A stretch of DNA of 64,000 bases, from contig NZ_CP036295.1 in the NCBI RefSeq assembly GCF_004801255.1, forward strand, positions 1,115,001 through 1,179,000, given 5' to 3'. The notes beneath the pieces are model-generated. The model made no database searches, had not been told where the DNA came from, and was given only the letters and a program-made list of their open reading frames with translations. Positions 35,234 to 43,524 of the stretch are shown one piece after another (position 1 is the first letter of the stretch; each line of letters starts with the position of its first letter). The position numbers and the translations under genes are program-made. This stretch comes from Desulfovibrio desulfuricans. Its GTDB lineage: Bacteria; Desulfobacterota; Desulfovibrionia; Desulfovibrionales; Desulfovibrionaceae.

Positions 35234-36139
35234 TTATCTGGCGGGGATGGAGGCGAGGCCGTCCCGCCATTTGGCCCGTGCCTCGTGCAAGGCTTCGGGC
35301 AGCTTGCCTATGAGTTCGCCTATCTGCGTGCCGGGGTTGGGGGCGCAGTGCTGGGCCAGCAGACGGGCCATGCGGGCGGCCGCCGTGCAGGCCTCGTTCA
35401 TGCAGGCTCCGGCGCACAAAAAGGCCGTCGCCAGCCCGGTCACCAGATCGCCCGTGCCGCCGATGCACTCCATGGCGGCGACAGCGGGGGCCTCCACCGT
35501 AGCTGTGATGCTGCCATCCGTGACGATATAGTCTTTTGTGCCCTTGATAATCATATTTTTAGGGCAGTTGCCGTGCTCAATGGCGCGCTGCAGCAGGGGA
35601 GTCACGTCGTCCTCGCACGCAAGCAAAAAGCCCCTGGTGTAGAATGGATGCGGGGCTTTTTCGTCCGCCAGAAAGGCCAGCTCGCCCAGATCGGGGGTAA
35701 AAAGGTCGTAGGCGTCGGCGTAGCCGCTCATCTTGGCCACGTACATAAAGCCCGCGTCCGCCACCATGCGGGGCGGCACGGCGATAGCCTGCACGGCCAT
35801 CAACACCCGGTTGTGCCAATCCAGATCAGGAAAAAGATAATGGAAGGTCAACCCCGCCGGAGCGATGCTGCCGAGGTTCTGTTCCAGCCATGCGTAAATG
35901 GCCCGGCTGCCAGCGCCGGAACCGGAGTCGCCTGCCAGCAGCAGACGCGGCGGGGCAACGCCCAGCGCGCCGCAGGCAAGTATGGCTGTGGCTGCCAGAG
36001 CCGCCGTGCCGCGCTGCACCGGCACACGCTGGCCGTCGGGCAGGCGCAGCAGACCGTCGGCAACAGTGCTGTCGCCCTCTAGCCCCGCAGGGCACAAGGC
36101 AAAATCCTGATCGGGCAGAGTTCCCACTATGCACCACAT
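35234..36139 (-). CDS. Ribokinase-fold protein resembling the YjeF C-terminal NAD(P)HX dehydratase domain
   Basis: The product is 301 residues with GGAGG at good spacing before the ATG. The C-terminal GGTGDLVTGLATAFLCAG block is the anion-hole/nucleotide motif of the YjeF-C/ribokinase fold, and IIKGTKDYIVTDG precedes it as in that family. It lacks the YjeF N-terminal epimerase domain. The first ATG overlaps the end of the DUF3343 gene by 13 bases, so it belongs to the yedE-tusA-DUF3343 cluster. NADHX repair or a kinase reaction on a selenium-related substrate are both possible. Confidence 0.65.
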   Translation of the reverse strand: MWCIVGTLPDQDFALCPAGLEGDSTVADGLLRLPDGQRVPVQRGTAALAATAILACGALGVAPPRLLLAGDSGSGAGSRAIYAWLEQNLGSIAPAGLTFHYLFPDLDWHNRVLMAVQAIAVPPRMVADAGFMYVAKMSGYADAYDLFTPDLGELAFLADEKAPHPFYTRGFLLACEDDVTPLLQRAIEHGNCPKNMIIKGTKDYIVTDGSITATVEAPAVAAMECIGGTGDLVTGLATAFLCAGACMNEACTAAARMARLLAQHCAPNPGTQIGELIGKLPEALHEARAKWRDGLASIPAR

Positions 36140-36756
36140 GCGCGTTGCCTCCGCAGTTCCTCAAAGGCCTTTTGCAGGCTGTAGCAGCAGAGCGTCTGAC
36201 CCAGGCTCAGCGGTTCCGGGGCTTCGGCAAGGCGCAGGCCGCAGAGTTTGCTTGCTACCCATGGCACATCGGGGCAGCCGCCGCCCGAAATGTTAACGAT
36301 GCGGTCGTCGGCGGTATCCAGGGTAATTTTCATGTTGGCGGCGCGTACCATGATCCAGCGGTCATCGACGCACCTGGTCTGAAACAGCGAAACCGGCTCC
36401 AGCAGCACATCGTTGGCGCTGACCACCTGCGAGGGAACAAGCCCGTCCTGTTCAAGAACTTCCAGCACGCGAACCTGACGCACCAGCTCAAAAACCACCA
36501 CCATATCACAGCCGGTACGCATCTGCGGCGGCGGCCCTTTTACCTCCACATCCAGCCCGGCGGCACGCAACAGGCGCTCGGCCCTGATCACTTCGCCCGT
36601 GTGGTCAAAGACCAGCAGCCCCCTGTCGTTGCAGGCGCGCCGGTGCTTGTCCGGCTGGCTATGGGCGTTGCTCCTGCCGCGAGGGGGCAAAAAAAGCTCG
36701 TGCAGTTTTTGCGCAATACCGTGCAGCAGTCCGCTTCGGGGTTGGTCCTGTGTCAT
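36127..36756 (-). CDS. DUF3343 (putative Se/S carrier-like) protein with Cys-containing C-terminal half
   Basis: The product is 209 residues; AGGAG precedes the ATG at 36756. Residues about 44-105 match DUF3343 (GLLVFDHTGEVIRAERLL, PPPQMRTGCDMVVVFE), a family repeatedly found with selenium-utilisation genes. The C-terminal half is unusual for the family: it has GGGCPDVPWVASKLCG and TLCCYSL, giving several cysteines that could carry sulfur or selenium. It overlaps the YjeF-C-like gene downstream and follows tusA by 163 bases. Confidence 0.75.
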   Translation of the reverse strand: MTQDQPRSGLLHGIAQKLHELFLPPRGRSNAHSQPDKHRRACNDRGLLVFDHTGEVIRAERLLRAAGLDVEVKGPPPQMRTGCDMVVVFELVRQVRVLEVLEQDGLVPSQVVSANDVLLEPVSLFQTRCVDDRWIMVRAANMKITLDTADDRIVNISGGGCPDVPWVASKLCGLRLAEAPEPLSLGQTLCCYSLQKAFEELRRQRACGA

Positions 36757-36919: not shown

Positions 36920-37138
36920 TCAGGATTTGCTGATGTCTATGCGGGTTGCGCCGTCGCTTTCGTCCGTGGCGGTCACGGCAAACCCTCGGTTGCGGGCGGC
37001 GCGGCTGACGTTTTCGAGGCTCGCGTCATTGTCTACCAGTACGCTGAAGGGCCCCTGCGCGTCAGTCTTGACTGCGGTAAGAAACATGAGCACGGGCTGC
37101 GGGCAGGAAAGGCCTCGGGTATCAATGGTTGTGGACAT
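36920..37138 (-). CDS. TusA/YedF-type sulfur (selenium) carrier protein
   Basis: The product is 72 residues with the family signature GLSCPQPV; Cys12 is the chalcogen-carrying residue. It is only the SirA/TusA domain, without the DsrE-like C-terminal domain present in many selenium YedF proteins. Its ATG overlaps the yedE stop by one base, so translation is coupled. Together with yedE and DUF3343 it is best read as a selenium or sulfur trafficking protein. Confidence 0.88.
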   Translation of the reverse strand: MSTTIDTRGLSCPQPVLMFLTAVKTDAQGPFSVLVDNDASLENVSRAARNRGFAVTATDESDGATRIDISKS

Positions 37139-38232
37139 TACGCGCCTCGCTTGCAGTTGAAAAATCCGATGCAGATGCAGACGCCAAGGCCGGCGAGGGT
37201 CGCCGCCATGCCATGCGGGCCAACCCCGGCGGGGCTGGAAGCCAGACCAAAGTTGTGCGCCACGGCTGTTCCTACAATAAGGCCCACGGCAAACACGGCG
37301 GCGTCGTTGTCGCCCTCGCCGGCCATAAACAGCTGACGCCCGGGGCAGCCGCCCGCAAGGGCAAAGGCCAGCCCGGCCGTAACCATGCCAAGGAAGTTCC
37401 AGAGGTTGTCGGGCTGGGCGATGGGCTGGTTTTCAAAGCCGGGCTTGAACGCGCCAAAGTACAGGTTGAGCAGCAGGGCCGCGCACAGCATGGCCACAAA
37501 GCCCAGGGCCAGGTGCCATTGTTTGAACAGCAGCACATCGCGCAGCGCGCCCATGGTGCAAAAGCGGCTGCGCTGGGCCAGAAAGCCCACAATCAGCCCC
37601 ACGCCGATGGAAAGGATAAAGGGCGCATGCTGCGCGCCTGGGCCTTTGACGGAGTAGAAAAGCACGCCGCTTTGCGGTTGCTCGGCCACTTGCGGGTTGA
37701 GGAGATACAGCGCTACAAAGGAGAGCATGATGCCGGGCAGCACCAGACCGGAAATCTTGCTCTGGCCCTGACTGCGCCCCAGCGAAAAGCCCATGCGAAA
37801 AAAGACCGTGCCGATGCCCACGCCGCAGACCAGGCCCGCAAGGCCAAACAGGGCAAAGGCGTCGCCGCCGGCCAGGCGCAGGATGACGCGCCACGGGCAG
37901 CCCAAAAAGACCAGCGCGCCGATGCCGGCAATGCCGCCAAGCAAAAAGCGGGTAATGGGGGCCGAGCCGCCGCGCGGTTTGAATTCGCCAAACGCCAGTG
38001 CCGCCCCAAATGCGCCAAGCACCATGCCCATGATCTCTGGCCGCAGATACTGCACAATCGCCGCGCGGTGAAGGCCCAGCGCCCCGGCGATATCGCGGTT
38101 AAAGCAGACCACGCAAATACCCATGTTGCCGGGGTTGCCCGTCTGTTGCAGCAGTACGGCGAGCACGCCGAAAACAAGGCCGGTGGCAATTATGCCCGTT
38201 GTTGTGGAAAAAACATTGAAGCCTGGTTTCAT
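37138..38232 (-). CDS. yedE: YedE/YeeE-family selenium (or sulfur-compound) transporter
   Basis: The product is 364 residues with AAGGAGG before the ATG. About nine to ten membrane helices and the cysteine-bearing motifs of the family are present (CVVCFNRD, LGCPWR, RSRFCTMGALRD, GGCPGRQL). Family members carry thiosulfate or, in selenium-using bacteria, are linked to selenium metabolism (YedE/FdhT). The coupling to tusA and DUF3343 and the neighbouring UGA-containing gene favour the selenium assignment, which stays an inference. Confidence 0.85.
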   Translation of the reverse strand: MKPGFNVFSTTTGIIATGLVFGVLAVLLQQTGNPGNMGICVVCFNRDIAGALGLHRAAIVQYLRPEIMGMVLGAFGAALAFGEFKPRGGSAPITRFLLGGIAGIGALVFLGCPWRVILRLAGGDAFALFGLAGLVCGVGIGTVFFRMGFSLGRSQGQSKISGLVLPGIMLSFVALYLLNPQVAEQPQSGVLFYSVKGPGAQHAPFILSIGVGLIVGFLAQRSRFCTMGALRDVLLFKQWHLALGFVAMLCAALLLNLYFGAFKPGFENQPIAQPDNLWNFLGMVTAGLAFALAGGCPGRQLFMAGEGDNDAAVFAVGLIVGTAVAHNFGLASSPAGVGPHGMAATLAGLGVCICIGFFNCKRGA

Positions 38233-38544: not shown

Positions 38545-39081
38545 TTATGAGGCCGTGGTCAGGTTTACACTGTCCTGGCCGTCGCGCTCTGTCAGCATGA
38601 CGTCCACATGTTCCTGCTTGCTGGTGTTGACGATGCGTCCCACATAGTCCGCGTGGATGGGCAGCTCGCGGTGGCCGCGGTCGATGAGCGTCAGCAGCTC
38701 CACGCAGCGCGGGCGGCCGTAGTCGAGCAGGGCCTCAAGGGCGGCCCGTATTGTGCGCCCGGTGTAGAGCACGTCGTCCACCAGAATGATGACCTTTTCG
38801 TCAACGCTTTCGGTAATGCGCGACTGGCCGATGCTGGGTTTGCCCACAAGGCTTGTCCAGTCGTCGCGGTACAGGTTGATATCCAGGGTTCCCAGCGGCA
38901 CGGCGTGCCCGAGGCGCGACTGCAGCAGGGCGGCAAGGCGGCGGGCAAGGTCTGCGCCGCGCCGTTCAATGCCCACCAGCATTACGTCATCGCACGCCGC
39001 GTGGCGTTCAAGTATCTGCGAGGCGAGGCGTTCGAGCACGCGCGCCATTTCGTCTTTTTCCAGCAACCGGGTCGTGGACAT
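38545..39081 (-). CDS. pyrR: PyrR bifunctional pyrimidine regulator / uracil phosphoribosyltransferase
   Basis: The product is 178 residues with the start at 39081 directly after GGAGG. The PRPP-binding loop VILVDDVLYTGRTIRAAL and the PyrR-type segment PSIGQSRI are present. The family has UPRTase activity and, in Gram-positives, binds pyr mRNA leaders. No pyr biosynthetic gene or obvious PyrR-binding leader is in the window, so the regulatory role here is open. It diverges from the HesB-like pair. Confidence 0.93.
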   Translation of the reverse strand: MSTTRLLEKDEMARVLERLASQILERHAACDDVMLVGIERRGADLARRLAALLQSRLGHAVPLGTLDINLYRDDWTSLVGKPSIGQSRITESVDEKVIILVDDVLYTGRTIRAALEALLDYGRPRCVELLTLIDRGHRELPIHADYVGRIVNTSKQEHVDVMLTERDGQDSVNLTTAS

Positions 39082-39206
39082 GGTTCCTCCAAAGGTGGAT
39101 ATGGTCAGCATTCTAGCCGTTTTCCCCTTCAAAGAAAAGCCCTGCGGTAATTGACAAGCCCCACGCATGACCTTAGTTAGTAAAACACCCGAATCATGGA
39201 GGACGT

Positions 39207-39533
39207 ATGATCGAATTGACCGACAGCGCCCGTAAGGAACTGGATTCGTTCTTTACCGGCAAGCAAAAGGAACCCATCCGGGTCTACATGACCGCAGGTT
39301 GAGGCGGACCGCGCCTTGCACTGGCTCTGGATGAGCCTAACGACCAGGATCAAACCGAGGAACAGGCCGGCTACACCTTCTGCATCAACAAAGATCTTTT
39401 GACTGAAGTGCAGGGTGTAAAAATTGATTTAACCTACATGGGCTTTGCGGTTGACCCCGTAGTGCCCTTTGCTTCAGACGGCAACAGCGGTGGTTGCGGC
39501 AGCTGCTCAAGCGGCTGCGGCAGCAACGCGTAA
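39207..39533 (+). CDS. HesB/IscA-like selenoprotein, in-frame TGA read as selenocysteine
   Basis: The product is 108 residues when the TGA at 39300-39302 is read through as Sec32. The frame before and after the TGA aligns along its whole length with the neighbouring gene at 39627, and the TGA falls on its conserved Cys (MTAG-U-GGPR against APGGCSGPH). A candidate SECIS hairpin follows. The start ATG has GGAGG upstream. The C-terminus keeps a Cys-rich tail (GGCGSCSSGCG). HesB-like selenoproteins are a known class in selenium-using anaerobes. The likely role is iron-sulfur or metal binding, or a redox function. A pseudogene with one nonsense change is the alternative. Confidence 0.88.
39303..39337 (+). 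promoter_or_regulatory. Candidate bacterial SECIS element
   Basis: Directly after the TGA, GGCTC (39323-39327) and GAGCC (39333-39337) form a stem with loop TGGAT, 25 bases downstream of the UGA and with a G in the second loop position. A second small stem (AGGCG/CGCCT, 39302-39316) lies between. Distance and loop fit the general bacterial SECIS pattern; no folding energy was computed. Confidence 0.6.
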
Positions 39534-39549: not shown

Positions 39550-39581
39550 GCTGGCCGGAAGAAGCTGGCCAGCCTGTTTTT
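39550..39581 (+). terminator. Terminator between the two HesB-like genes
   Basis: GCTGGCC (39550-39556) and GGCCAGC (39567-39573) form a stem followed by CTGTTTTT. The Sec gene and its Cys paralogue therefore appear to be separate transcription units. Confidence 0.65.
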
Positions 39582-39626
39582 CGTTACTCTACAATATATA
39601 GCGTGTCGAAAAACATCGGAGGAACC

Positions 39627-39944
39627 ATGCTTGAACTGACCGAAAGCGCCCAGAAGGAACTGGCGGCCTTTTTTGAAGGTAAGGAAAAAAGCACCATTCG
39701 TGTTTATCTCGCTCCCGGCGGGTGCAGCGGGCCGCATCTGGCCCTGGCGCTTGACGCCGCCACGGAAGAGGATATGAGCGAAGATCAGGGCGGATTCACC
39801 TTCTGCATCAACAAGGAGCTTCTTGCTCAGGTTGAAGGCGTGAAGATTGACCTGTCCTACATGGGCTTTACTGTTGAGCCCACGGTGCCCCTGCCCCAGA
39901 CGGGCGGCGGTTGCAGCGGCTGCTCCGGCGGCTGCGGACACTAG
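39627..39944 (+). CDS. HesB/IscA-like protein, cysteine form
   Basis: The product is 105 residues; GGAGGA precedes the ATG. It is a paralogue of the preceding UGA gene, with Cys in place of Sec (GGCSGPHLALAL), a second conserved Cys in FTFCINKELL, and a tail GCSGCSGGCGH in the position of the IscA CxC. The protein belongs to the A-type iron-sulfur carrier superfamily but is divergent. A candidate -10 region (ACAATATATAG) lies just upstream. Confidence 0.88.
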   Translation: MLELTESAQKELAAFFEGKEKSTIRVYLAPGGCSGPHLALALDAATEEDMSEDQGGFTFCINKELLAQVEGVKIDLSYMGFTVEPTVPLPQTGGGCSGCSGGCGH

Positions 39945-39961
39945 AAGCAAATGACTTGCAA

Positions 39962-40002
39962 ACCGGGCGGCGGCCTTCTGCTGCCGCCCGGTTTGCCGTT
40001 TT
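39962..40002 (+). terminator. Terminator after the Cys-form HesB gene
   Basis: ACCGGGCGGC (39962-39971) pairs with GCCGCCCGGT (39983-39992), followed by TTTGCCGTTTT. It lies 18 bases past the stop and separates the gene from mfd. Confidence 0.75.
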
Positions 40003-40080
40003 ATGGCCGCAATTGCGCGGCCGTGCCGGGGGCGGCGCAGGCTGCCCCCGGCCTTGTTTGCATAACCCCCCCACAGGTTC

Positions 40081-43000
40081 ATGGACACTTTCGGCGTACT
40101 GTTTTCAAGCAACGACAGGCAGATATATCTTGAACGTAGCGGCATGGTCACGCGTTGCCGCCTTGCCTGCGAGGCGCTGGACAAGGGGCGCAGCGTGGCC
40201 CTCTTGGCCCGTACCCGCGAAGAATTCAGCGCGGCCCGAGCCCTCGCGGCGCTTTTTTCTCCCGAAATTTCGCTGGCCGATCCAGCTCTTGTGCGCCCCG
40301 CGTGGCAACAGCCCTGTCTGGGACTGCCCCCTCTGAGCCAGTGGCAGGACAAAGCATCGTGGGCCGCCCGTATGGCCGCCCTGTACGCCTTGAGCCTGAA
40401 TCGTCCCCGTGTGCTGGTGGTCAGCGTCGAAAGCCTGCTGCTGCGCTACATGCCGGTCAATTTTTTTCACAGCCGCACGCTCGAGATCGGCAAGGGCAGC
40501 GATTACGCCCCAGAGCTGCTGCTTGAACAGGCGGTGGAGTGGGGTTACGAGCGGGTCGCCATGGTCACGCGCCCCGGCGAAATGGCCCGGCGCGGCGACA
40601 TCCTCGATCTCTTCCCCTCAGGTTATGCGCGTCCTGTACGGCTGGAATTTTTTGGCGACACGCTGGACGAAATGCGGTTTTTTGATGCAGAAACCCAGCG
40701 TTCGCTGCAGGGTTGCGACGAGCTGACCTTGCTGCCAGTGAGTCCGCTTTCCATGGACGCTCGCGAGGCCGAGGCCACGCGCATGCGGTTTGACCGCATG
40801 TTTGCCGAGGGCCGCATTGGCGAGAACGACTGCTACTCTTTTAAAAAAGCCCTGGATGCCGGTGGCGCCGGCCTGTTGCCGGGCTGCGCCGTTGACGCTC
40901 CCAGCCTGCTTGAAGAATGGTTGCCGCAAGACTGTCTGTGGCTGCTGCCCGGCGAGGCCGACAGCGCCGAGGCTCTGCGCGACGGACGCCTTGCCCTCAA
41001 GGAAAAACTGGAGGACGAGGACGCGCCCCTGCCGCAACCGGCCTCGCTGGCCTTGCGCAAAAGCTCGCAGCCCGCACCGTGGAACGCCTTTCAAAGGGTG
41101 TACGCCGAACCTCTTGTCATGGGGGTAGAGGAACGCGGTCTGGATTTTGCGGAGAGAACCCTGCATTCGTTCAGCGATCTTTTTCCGCTTTCCGGTGCGC
41201 AGGATCGCCCCTGGCAGCACCTTGCCGCAGCTCTCAAAGATTGGCAGGGCTCGCGCCGACAGGTGGTGCTGAGTTTTTCGTCGGCCAGAAGCCGGGCCAA
41301 GTTTCTCAAGCTGGCCGAGCAGGACGGCATTGCGCCAGCCCTGCGCTACGCCCCCGACCAGCACGGCCTTTTTGCCCTTGTGTCGCCCTATCGTCAGGGC
41401 GCGGATCTGGCCTGGGACAACGCCCTGGTGCTGGGCGAGGACATTCTGTACCCCAAGGCCGAAAAAACGCCCCGCGTGTCGTCCCGCGTATTCAAGGGGC
41501 TGGATTCCTTTGACGATCTCAATCCCGGCGACCTGCTGGTGCACCGCGATTACGGCATTGGCCGTTTTGCCGGTCTGCACCACATGGATGTGAACGCCGT
41601 TGCCAACGACTTTTTGCTCATCGAGTACTCCGGGCGCGACAAGCTCTATGTGCCTGCCGACCGCATGGGGCTTATCCAGCGGTTCAAGGGTTCGGAGGGC
41701 GTGGAACCGGCGCTGGACCGCCTTGGCGGCGCAGGCTGGGCCTCGGGCAAGGAAAAAGCCCGCAAGGCCATTGAAAAAATCGCCGCCGACCTGGTGGAGA
41801 TGTACGCCTACCGCAAGGTGACAAAGGGTTTTCGCTACGATCCCCCCGGCGAGCTGTACCACGAATTTGAAGCCACATTCGGTTTTGAGGAAACGCCCGA
41901 CCAGGCCAAGGCCATTCAGGACGTGCTGGACGACATGGACAAGTCGCAGCCCATGGACCGCCTGGTGTGCGGCGACGTGGGCTTTGGCAAGACCGAGGTG
42001 GCGCTGCGGGCGGCCTTTCGCGCAGCCTCCGAGGGGCGGCAGGTTGTTTTGCTCTGCCCAACAACTGTGCTGGCCGAGCAGCATTACCAGACCTTTCGCG
42101 CGCGTCTGGCGGGCTTTCCCGTCAATGTGGGGCTGCTCAGCCGCTTTGTGCCGCGCCCCCGCCAAAAGGACGTGCTCAAGGCTGCGGCCTCCGGTCAGGT
42201 GGATATCCTCATCGGCACGCATCGCGTGCTCTCAAGCGACGTCAAGCTGCCCAATCTGGCCCTGCTGATACTGGACGAAGAGCAGCGCTTTGGCGTGCGG
42301 CACAAGGAAAAGCTCAAGGCGCTGAAAAAAAATGTGGACGTGCTGACCCTCACGGCCACGCCCATTCCGCGTACCCTGCAACTTTCCATGTCGGGCATCC
42401 GCGAGCTTTCCATCATTGAAACCGCCCCGCAGGACCGCAAGCCTGTGGCCTCGGCTGTGCTGCGGCGCGACGATTCCGTGCTGCGCAAGGTGCTGGAACG
42501 CGAAATCGAGCGCGAGGGACAGGCATTCTGGGTGTACAACCGCGTGCAGGGGCTTGAGCGGGTGGCCGAATACGTGCGCGCCCTTGTGCCCACGGCGCGT
42601 GTGGGCATGGCTCACGGGCAGATGTCCGAGACGGAGCTTGAGGACACCATGCACAATTTCTGGCACGGCGAGCTTGACGTGCTGGTGTGCACCTCCATTG
42701 TAGAATCTGGGCTGGACTTTCCCCGCGCCAATACCCTGGTAGTGGATCAGGCCCAGATGTTTGGCCTAGGGCAGCTCTATCAGCTGCGGGGGCGCGTGGG
42801 GCGCAGCGACAGGCAGGCCTACGCCTTTTTTGTCGTGCCCGACGCGGAGCGCCTGACCCCTATTGCCGAGGAGCGCCTGCGCATCATCATGGATATGGAC
42901 TATCTGGGCGCGGGCTTTCAGGTCGCCATGGAAGACCTGCGCCTGCGGGGAGCGGGCAATATTCTTGGCGAGGTGCAGTCGGGGCACATGTGCCGCGTGG

Positions 43001-43524
43001 GGCTTGATCTGTACCTCGAAATGCTTGAGGAGGCGGTGGGTCGCCTCAAGGGCACGCCCGAGGCGCATACCGTGGAAACGGAACTTACTTTGGGCTTGCC
43101 TGCGCATATTCCCGCATCGTACATTGAGGACGGCCGGGAACGTCTGCGTTGTTACAAAACGCTCACCTCCGCGGCGGGCGGGGCTGCGAGGGAAGAGGCT
43201 GCCCTTGGCATCCGCGACAGGTTTGGGCCTTTTCCTGAAGAGTTGCGCAATTTTCTCGCCGTGCTCGATTTCAAGCAGTTCCTCACCGAACTGCAGGTGC
43301 AAAAGGCCGACGTGCACATCAACCATGTGCGGCTTGTGTGGCCCGACGGGCAAAATGCCGTGCAGCCCGAGCGCATCGTGGCTCTTACGGCCAGCATGAA
43401 GGATGCCCGCATGCTGCCCCCCGCAGGCCTGCACCTGCCGCTGCCCACCGATGTGCCCTTTGCCGAGGGACTCGACAGGCTGCGGACTGCGCTTGAAGGT
43501 ATTCGGACTCAGGCTGGAGCATAG
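40081..43524 (+). CDS. mfd: Transcription-repair coupling factor Mfd
   Basis: The product is 1147 residues. It displaces stalled RNA polymerase and recruits UvrA. Order: UvrB-homologous N-terminal region (about 1-330), polymerase-interacting CarD-like domain (NPGDLLVHRDYGIGRF near 480), the RecG-like ATPase with Walker A GDVGFGKTE near 631 and DEEQ near 731, and a C-terminal TRCF domain. An AGG-containing weak ribosome site precedes the ATG. It leads a plus-strand run with two SurA-type chaperone genes. Confidence 0.97.
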   Translation: MDTFGVLFSSNDRQIYLERSGMVTRCRLACEALDKGRSVALLARTREEFSAARALAALFSPEISLADPALVRPAWQQPCLGLPPLSQWQDKASWAARMAALYALSLNRPRVLVVSVESLLLRYMPVNFFHSRTLEIGKGSDYAPELLLEQAVEWGYERVAMVTRPGEMARRGDILDLFPSGYARPVRLEFFGDTLDEMRFFDAETQRSLQGCDELTLLPVSPLSMDAREAEATRMRFDRMFAEGRIGENDCYSFKKALDAGGAGLLPGCAVDAPSLLEEWLPQDCLWLLPGEADSAEALRDGRLALKEKLEDEDAPLPQPASLALRKSSQPAPWNAFQRVYAEPLVMGVEERGLDFAERTLHSFSDLFPLSGAQDRPWQHLAAALKDWQGSRRQVVLSFSSARSRAKFLKLAEQDGIAPALRYAPDQHGLFALVSPYRQGADLAWDNALVLGEDILYPKAEKTPRVSSRVFKGLDSFDDLNPGDLLVHRDYGIGRFAGLHHMDVNAVANDFLLIEYSGRDKLYVPADRMGLIQRFKGSEGVEPALDRLGGAGWASGKEKARKAIEKIAADLVEMYAYRKVTKGFRYDPPGELYHEFEATFGFEETPDQAKAIQDVLDDMDKSQPMDRLVCGDVGFGKTEVALRAAFRAASEGRQVVLLCPTTVLAEQHYQTFRARLAGFPVNVGLLSRFVPRPRQKDVLKAAASGQVDILIGTHRVLSSDVKLPNLALLILDEEQRFGVRHKEKLKALKKNVDVLTLTATPIPRTLQLSMSGIRELSIIETAPQDRKPVASAVLRRDDSVLRKVLEREIEREGQAFWVYNRVQGLERVAEYVRALVPTARVGMAHGQMSETELEDTMHNFWHGELDVLVCTSIVESGLDFPRANTLVVDQAQMFGLGQLYQLRGRVGRSDRQAYAFFVVPDAERLTPIAEERLRIIMDMDYLGAGFQVAMEDLRLRGAGNILGEVQSGHMCRVGLDLYLEMLEEAVGRLKGTPEAHTVETELTLGLPAHIPASYIEDGRERLRCYKTLTSAAGGAAREEAALGIRDRFGPFPEELRNFLAVLDFKQFLTELQVQKADVHINHVRLVWPDGQNAVQPERIVALTASMKDARMLPPAGLHLPLPTDVPFAEGLDRLRTALEGIRTQAGA

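Follow-up and report, generated by a model that had tools for sequence, protein, structure and literature searches.

The window analysed here is a stretch of 64,000 nucleotides from Desulfovibrio desulfuricans (contig NZ_CP036295.1) that carries two HesB/IscA-like genes in tandem on its plus strand. The upstream gene (39207-39533) begins with ATG at 39207 and ends with TAA at 39531-39533, and its sole in-frame stop is a TGA at 39300-39302. Read through this codon, it would yield a product of 108 residues (MTAG-U-GGPR around the site) with 62% identity to the 105-residue product of the intact downstream gene (39627-39944). The TGA aligns with the Cys of this paralogue (C33), a residue that is conserved among IscA proteins, and is a putative selenocysteine (Sec) codon, U32; immediately before the site the Sec copy has one residue fewer than its Cys twin. 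A preliminary description of this DNA had proposed that the frame is broken only by this TGA, on the Cys of the paralogue, which both translation and alignment bear out. It had also expected standard gene callers to mishandle the gene, and a standard caller indeed ends the frame after 31 codons.

Each of the two genes is followed by its own intrinsic-terminator-like hairpin with a T-run (39550-39573 and 39958-39996, plus strand), in agreement with the separate terminators described earlier. A sigma-70-like promoter match upstream of the Cys gene (39566-39595, plus strand) is weak, with one match found where 0.5 were expected. A second strong GC-rich hairpin (40025-40052) lies between the terminator of the Cys gene and the start of mfd.

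The pair is flanked upstream by the divergent pyrR (38545-39168, minus strand; NF003549, 230.6 bits, cut-off 138) and downstream by mfd (40081-43524, plus strand; TIGR00580, 949 bits, cut-off 800). Divergent pyrR marks a conserved locus and stands upstream of the HesB array at 116 of 214 loci; within the genus, the gene conserved on the downstream side is mfd. Outside the pair, the neighbours that the preliminary description had named are present on the minus strand: a putative selenium transporter gene, yedE (37138-38232; TIGR04112, 450.5 bits, cut-off 200), and genes for a TusA/YedF-like protein (36920-37138; PF01206) and a DUF3343 Se/S-carrier domain protein (36127-36756; PF11823). Published work proposes roles in the transport and trafficking of selenium for YedE, YedF and DUF3343 (PMC5322559). 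These Se-carrier neighbours were seen close by in the window's genus only, with 1.5 kb of flank covered in other genera. An open frame beside the DUF3343 gene (35234-36139, minus strand) has a weak match to NAD(P)H-hydrate dehydratase (28 bits, cut-off 129.85) and is conserved with the yedE cluster at four other loci (L050, L051, L052 and L054).

Decoding of the in-frame TGA

We aligned 341 HesB copies cut from about 200 genomes, after searches that took in the genus, the family and the phylum of the window. At the site, 163 copies have TGA, 138 TGC and 24 TGT, and the 16 copies with other codons are degenerate paralogues or partial alignments. The alignment of orthologues suggested in the preliminary description has returned only TGA or Cys codons at this site, bar a few degenerate paralogues. 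The frames of the 341 copies were split at TAA and TAG, and the absence of these two codons rests on six-frame genome searches in which all three stops were read through; among the HesB matches listed there, TGA is the sole internal stop. Past the TGA, dN/dS against relatives in the genus is about 0.07-0.32, and this part of the sequence is thus under purifying selection. With 163 TGA-bearing copies in relatives and this range of dN/dS, the TGA frame is not a product of chance.

Downstream of the TGA lies a candidate SECIS core, GGCTC-TGGAT-GAGCC (39323-39337, plus strand), in which the stem halves at 39323-39327 and 39333-39337 form five base pairs around the loop TGGAT (39328-39332). The stem starts 20 bases and the loop 25 bases past the TGA, matching the stem-loop previously noted about 20 bases beyond the UGA. 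The RNA fold of 39300-39345 has a z-score of -2.85 relative to shuffles, against 0.10 for the equivalent stretch of the Cys gene. Across relatives, MFE z-scores taken over the whole stretch told the Sec copies apart from the Cys copies only weakly, and control stretches differed too; conservation of the SECIS was judged by a position-specific stem test in their place. By this test, the loop of the best stem-loop starts 25 bases past the TGA in 158 of 163 TGA copies, whereas the best stem-loops of Cys copies share no common position. Of 141 TGA sequences that differ from one another, 137 retain the full set of five stem pairs, versus 9 of 150 Cys sequences, and two of the four exceptions (G208 and G255) have the same stem three bases closer to the TGA. 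Compensatory changes are found among TGA copies at pair 22-32 (C-G in 129, T-A in 9) and pair 20-34 (G-C in 136, T-A in 3), and one species has two adjacent stem pairs changed together (GGTCC...GGACC). GCT serves as the Ala codon within the stem in 129 of 141 Sec copies versus 28 of 150 Cys copies. Since the loop bases code for Leu-Asp and many Cys copies share them, the SECIS signal sits in the stem. An Rfam search of the window at the gathering score returned tRNAs only and no SECIS family. A SECIS common to HesB and selD was not seen, the selD of the same genome having a different hairpin.

The genome encodes a complete Sec machinery. A check for selA, selB, selC and selD, as had been proposed, found all four above their curated cut-offs (578.8 bits, cut-off 267.9; 316.8 bits, cut-off 242.25; 74.5, cut-off 47; and 316.1 bits, cut-off 125, respectively). 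The selD gene (L018) and the fdhA gene (L235) of this genome have one in-frame TGA each. Among 148 genomes of the genus and family, the presence of a TGA-containing HesB gene tracks that of selA (p = 2e-15): 111 genomes have both, 23 neither, 10 selA only and 4 the TGA copy only. The last four, in which selA was not detected, comprise three genomes that are 69-82% complete (G181, G175 and G182) and one that is 96% complete (G174). At least one of the ten genomes counted as selA only (G085) does have a TGA copy, absent from the cut-out set. Within the genus, G154, G224 and G240 have selA but were seen with Cys copies only.

The probable selenoprotein of the preliminary description is supported by the alternation of UGA with Cys codons, by a constrained and intact SECIS, by a complete Sec machinery and the association with selA, by selection past the UGA and by membership of a known family. 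Because the SECIS is conserved with compensatory changes and dN/dS is low past the TGA, the gene is probably translated through the UGA. In the mechanism that we propose, SelB and tRNA-Sec would deliver Sec at the stem-loop 39323-39337, and ribosomes would decode the UGA as selenocysteine, placing Sec at U32. The product would be a small A-type (IscA/SufA/HesB-like) protein with Sec in place of the first conserved Cys and the C-terminal Cys cluster retained. Judged as one explanation that takes in product and evolution as well, it is highly probable that 39207-39533 is a functional selenoprotein gene. On the other side stand the four TGA-bearing genomes in which selA was not detected, the three selA-bearing genomes seen with Cys copies only, and Se-carrier neighbours seen close by in this genus only. 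Early termination by the gene caller, after 31 codons, is what would be expected if a nonsense mutation had truncated the upstream copy and left the downstream copy to do the work. The comparative data have already refuted this reading, leaving it a negligible probability: the codon is TGA and never TAA or TAG among the listed HesB matches of hundreds of genomes, the SECIS is invariant, the sequence past the TGA is under purifying selection and TGA-containing HesB genes are associated with selA.

Turnover of Sec and Cys copies at one locus

Tandem Sec/Cys pairs are common in Desulfovibrionaceae, in either order and at one locus beside pyrR. The Sec-Cys arrangement was found at 58 loci and Cys-Sec at 18, along with Sec alone, Cys-Cys-Sec, Cys-Sec-Cys and others; the loci behind these counts were cut with flanks of about 1.5 kb, and a few genomes contribute two loci each. 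The pair that had been singled out as notable is thus real but not peculiar to this genome. Some arrays hold an extra HesB paralogue (x) with Glu, Asp, Ala or Ser at the Cys/Sec site (e.g., SFMSeSGPRL and SPRGsRGPHL), in the arrangement UCx at L037, L039-L044, L046, L048 and L174 and xU at L133, L137 and L153. This paralogue, without Cys or Sec and apparently site-dead, is retained in several related species.

In the window's clade, the Sec copies of 16 species form one group and the Cys copies another (94/76 and 95/91). Because each kind forms a single group, the window's pair goes back to a single old duplication, which at least 16 species of the genus have in common. Other pairs in the family are lineage-specific, unlike that of the window. 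Trees over 26 genomes from the family and beyond rule out that Sec and Cys copies parted just once (log-likelihood lower by 459, p-AU 1e-65). The branches starred on the tree call for at least about 11 changes between Sec and Cys, and Sec and Cys copies of the same genome are sisters in G023, G032, G015, G120, G114 and G212. In the family as a whole, pairs at this locus have repeatedly been made anew or homogenised. For the genus taken alone, the data are compatible with a single Sec clade (p-AU 0.22), and we therefore do not claim independent duplication there.

The same pattern could arise without repeated fresh duplications if one ancient Sec/Cys pair had been homogenised again and again by gene conversion that spared the UGA and the SECIS. 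We lean against this possibility, which remains a serious one. It would fit the permanence of the array at one locus (pyrR upstream and, in the genus, mfd downstream) as well as the single Sec clade within the genus just mentioned, and the Sec and Cys copies of G245 and G212 share 90-93% identity up to the Sec codon and about 65-83% beyond it, with third-base counts too small for a firm claim. However, the order of copies varies between clades (Sec first, Cys first, CCU and CUC), most sister pairs from one genome are evenly similar from one end of the gene to the other, and the Cys copy of G015 lies about 68 kb away. At loci L058 and L202, identity of the Cys copy to the Sec copy drops from 90-93% before the Sec codon to about 65-83% after it, possibly a conversion tract ending before the UGA. 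We found no description of a tandem Sec/Cys array at a conserved locus with repeated turnover in the literature searched, which was incomplete; the array and its turnover go beyond that literature.

In the genus, all 15 sampled genomes that lack selA have a single Cys gene at the locus. This gene is derived from the Cys twin in G214, G218, G258, G257 and G217. In G236, G261, G239 and G243 it lies among Sec-type copies, so the Sec codon would have been changed in place. An intact SECIS stem stands behind TGC or TGT in three of these selA-less genomes (G236, G239 and G243), as well as in G221 and the Cys twin of G010, and a decayed SECIS stands behind the Cys codon in G261, G176, G154 and G114. 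L187 (from G221) and L055 show two tandem Cys copies in a genome with selA, of which one has an intact SECIS behind TGC and the other a decayed one. The Sec-to-Cys duplication put forward in the preliminary description is upheld by fossil SECIS elements in other lineages; none was found in the Cys copy of the window, and for that reason the pair seen here does not itself reveal the direction. Such a conversion is already published for HesB-like proteins: Zhang et al. 2006 (PMC1794560) scored this family with two Sec-to-Cys and no Cys-to-Sec events and reported a remnant SECIS in Desulfitobacterium hafniense.

An ancestral Cys copy with a derived Sec copy would follow the commoner direction among bacterial selenoproteins, 33 Cys-to-Sec versus 15 Sec-to-Cys events in the same study (PMC1794560). 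Its scores for HesB-like proteins run the other way, however, and one identical kind of SECIS throughout the phylum, together with the intact SECIS behind Cys codons in five genomes, also makes this direction improbable here. Faster evolution of the Cys twin than of its Sec partner was considered and rejected as an indicator, looking convincing on a few branches but being small over 108 pairs: identity to outgroup Sec copies is 0.365 vs 0.355 (p = 0.006), the difference against outgroup Cys copies is not significant, and the rate difference was left out of the argument on direction. The reading that we mildly favour is that a Sec-encoding HesB gene repeatedly gave rise to Cys twins at one locus, in both orders, and that with loss of the Sec machinery either the Cys twin was kept or the UGA was converted in place, leaving a fossil SECIS. 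If this is true, nature has provided at this locus a series of Sec-to-Cys changes that runs counter to the general trend from Cys to Sec.

Role of the twins and relation to known proteins

Both copies match NF038090 (NCBIfam IscA_HesB_Se, IscA/HesB family protein; cut-off 85 bits), the Sec copy with 93.5 and the Cys copy with 105.5 bits, so the family is already catalogued, with selenium in its name. Against Pfam PF01521 (Fe-S_biosyn; gathering score 26.3) the Cys copy scores 31.6 and the Sec copy 22.7. A profile built from 32 relatives matches IscA (1s98, 1r94 and 1x0g) and SufA (2d2a) among solved structures, and the predicted structure (mean pLDDT 83, with a 17-residue disordered tail) has IscA 1x0g with its [2Fe-2S] cluster as top fold match (E = 1e-6). 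U/C32, C97, C100 and C104 are invariant in the 32 sequences. Since profile and predicted fold match IscA, Sec aligns with the first of the Cys conserved among IscA proteins and the C-terminal Cys are kept, the likeliest role of the HesB product is that of an A-type Fe-S carrier; the function would be to carry Fe-S (or Se).

The Cys twin, which lacks a SECIS, could serve as a selenium-independent stand-in for the Sec form. A precedent is Methanococcus maripaludis, where Sec and Cys isoforms of methanogenesis enzymes are switched with selenium supply (PMC11097638). Alternatively, the twins might be made simultaneously and serve different clients, having subfunctionalised, in place of forming a selenium-replete and selenium-poor pair. 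Their stable co-existence over 16 species, their separate terminators and an identity of only 62% would suit such a division of labor, and we come close to giving it an even chance. The retention of a single Cys copy in all of the sampled selA-less genomes of the genus looks instead as if one form sufficed, and the isoform switching of M. maripaludis likewise speaks for the stand-in model.

The wider pattern is more useful than the gene itself. At a locus marked by pyrR, and within the genus by mfd too, many species, some of which have selenium machinery and some of which lack it, have Sec and Cys versions of one small protein. In which direction, in what order and at what cost Sec and Cys are exchanged is directly legible there. 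The twins also allow a clean comparison of what a predicted A-type carrier gains from Sec.

HesB-like selenoproteins were known beforehand, as the preliminary description had recognized, and those of Desulfovibrio vulgaris and D. desulfuricans were listed in 2006 (Table 3 of PMC1794560). That report concerns the same kind of organism, protein and codon, a likeness drawn from these descriptions only; tandem pairs go unmentioned in its text, whereas the window gene sits in one. The HesB-like protein of M. maripaludis also contains Sec, by 75Se labelling, and is distantly related to IscA, according to work cited in PMC11097638, where unpublished work is also cited in which its disruption caused no nitrogen-fixation defect. 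The function of this archaeal HesB-like selenoprotein is reported as not clear (PMC11097638), and it differs from the window protein in being archaeal, with SECIS elements mostly in untranslated regions. The E. coli IscA and SufA proteins (1s98, 1r94 and 2d2a) and 1x0g share the fold, the GGC-G motif and the C-terminal Cys; the window protein has Sec for the first Cys and a Cys-rich tail of three or more Cys, and the window copies do not reach the equivalog cut-offs of the IscA, SufA and ErpA models. TIGR01911 (HesB_rel_seleno), the model cited in reviews for HesB-like selenoproteins (PMC13188914), is a related profile with Sec at the same Cys; its cut-off of 66.35 bits is missed by both copies (32.0 and 30.9), and it represents a sister subfamily, not the window genes' own. 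That own family is NF038090, which has Sec or Cys at the same site, and nothing in the window pair sets it outside this family. The window gene is a further example of a known selenoprotein family, ordinary for Desulfovibrionaceae, and lies in a tandem pair whose other member is the Cys form.
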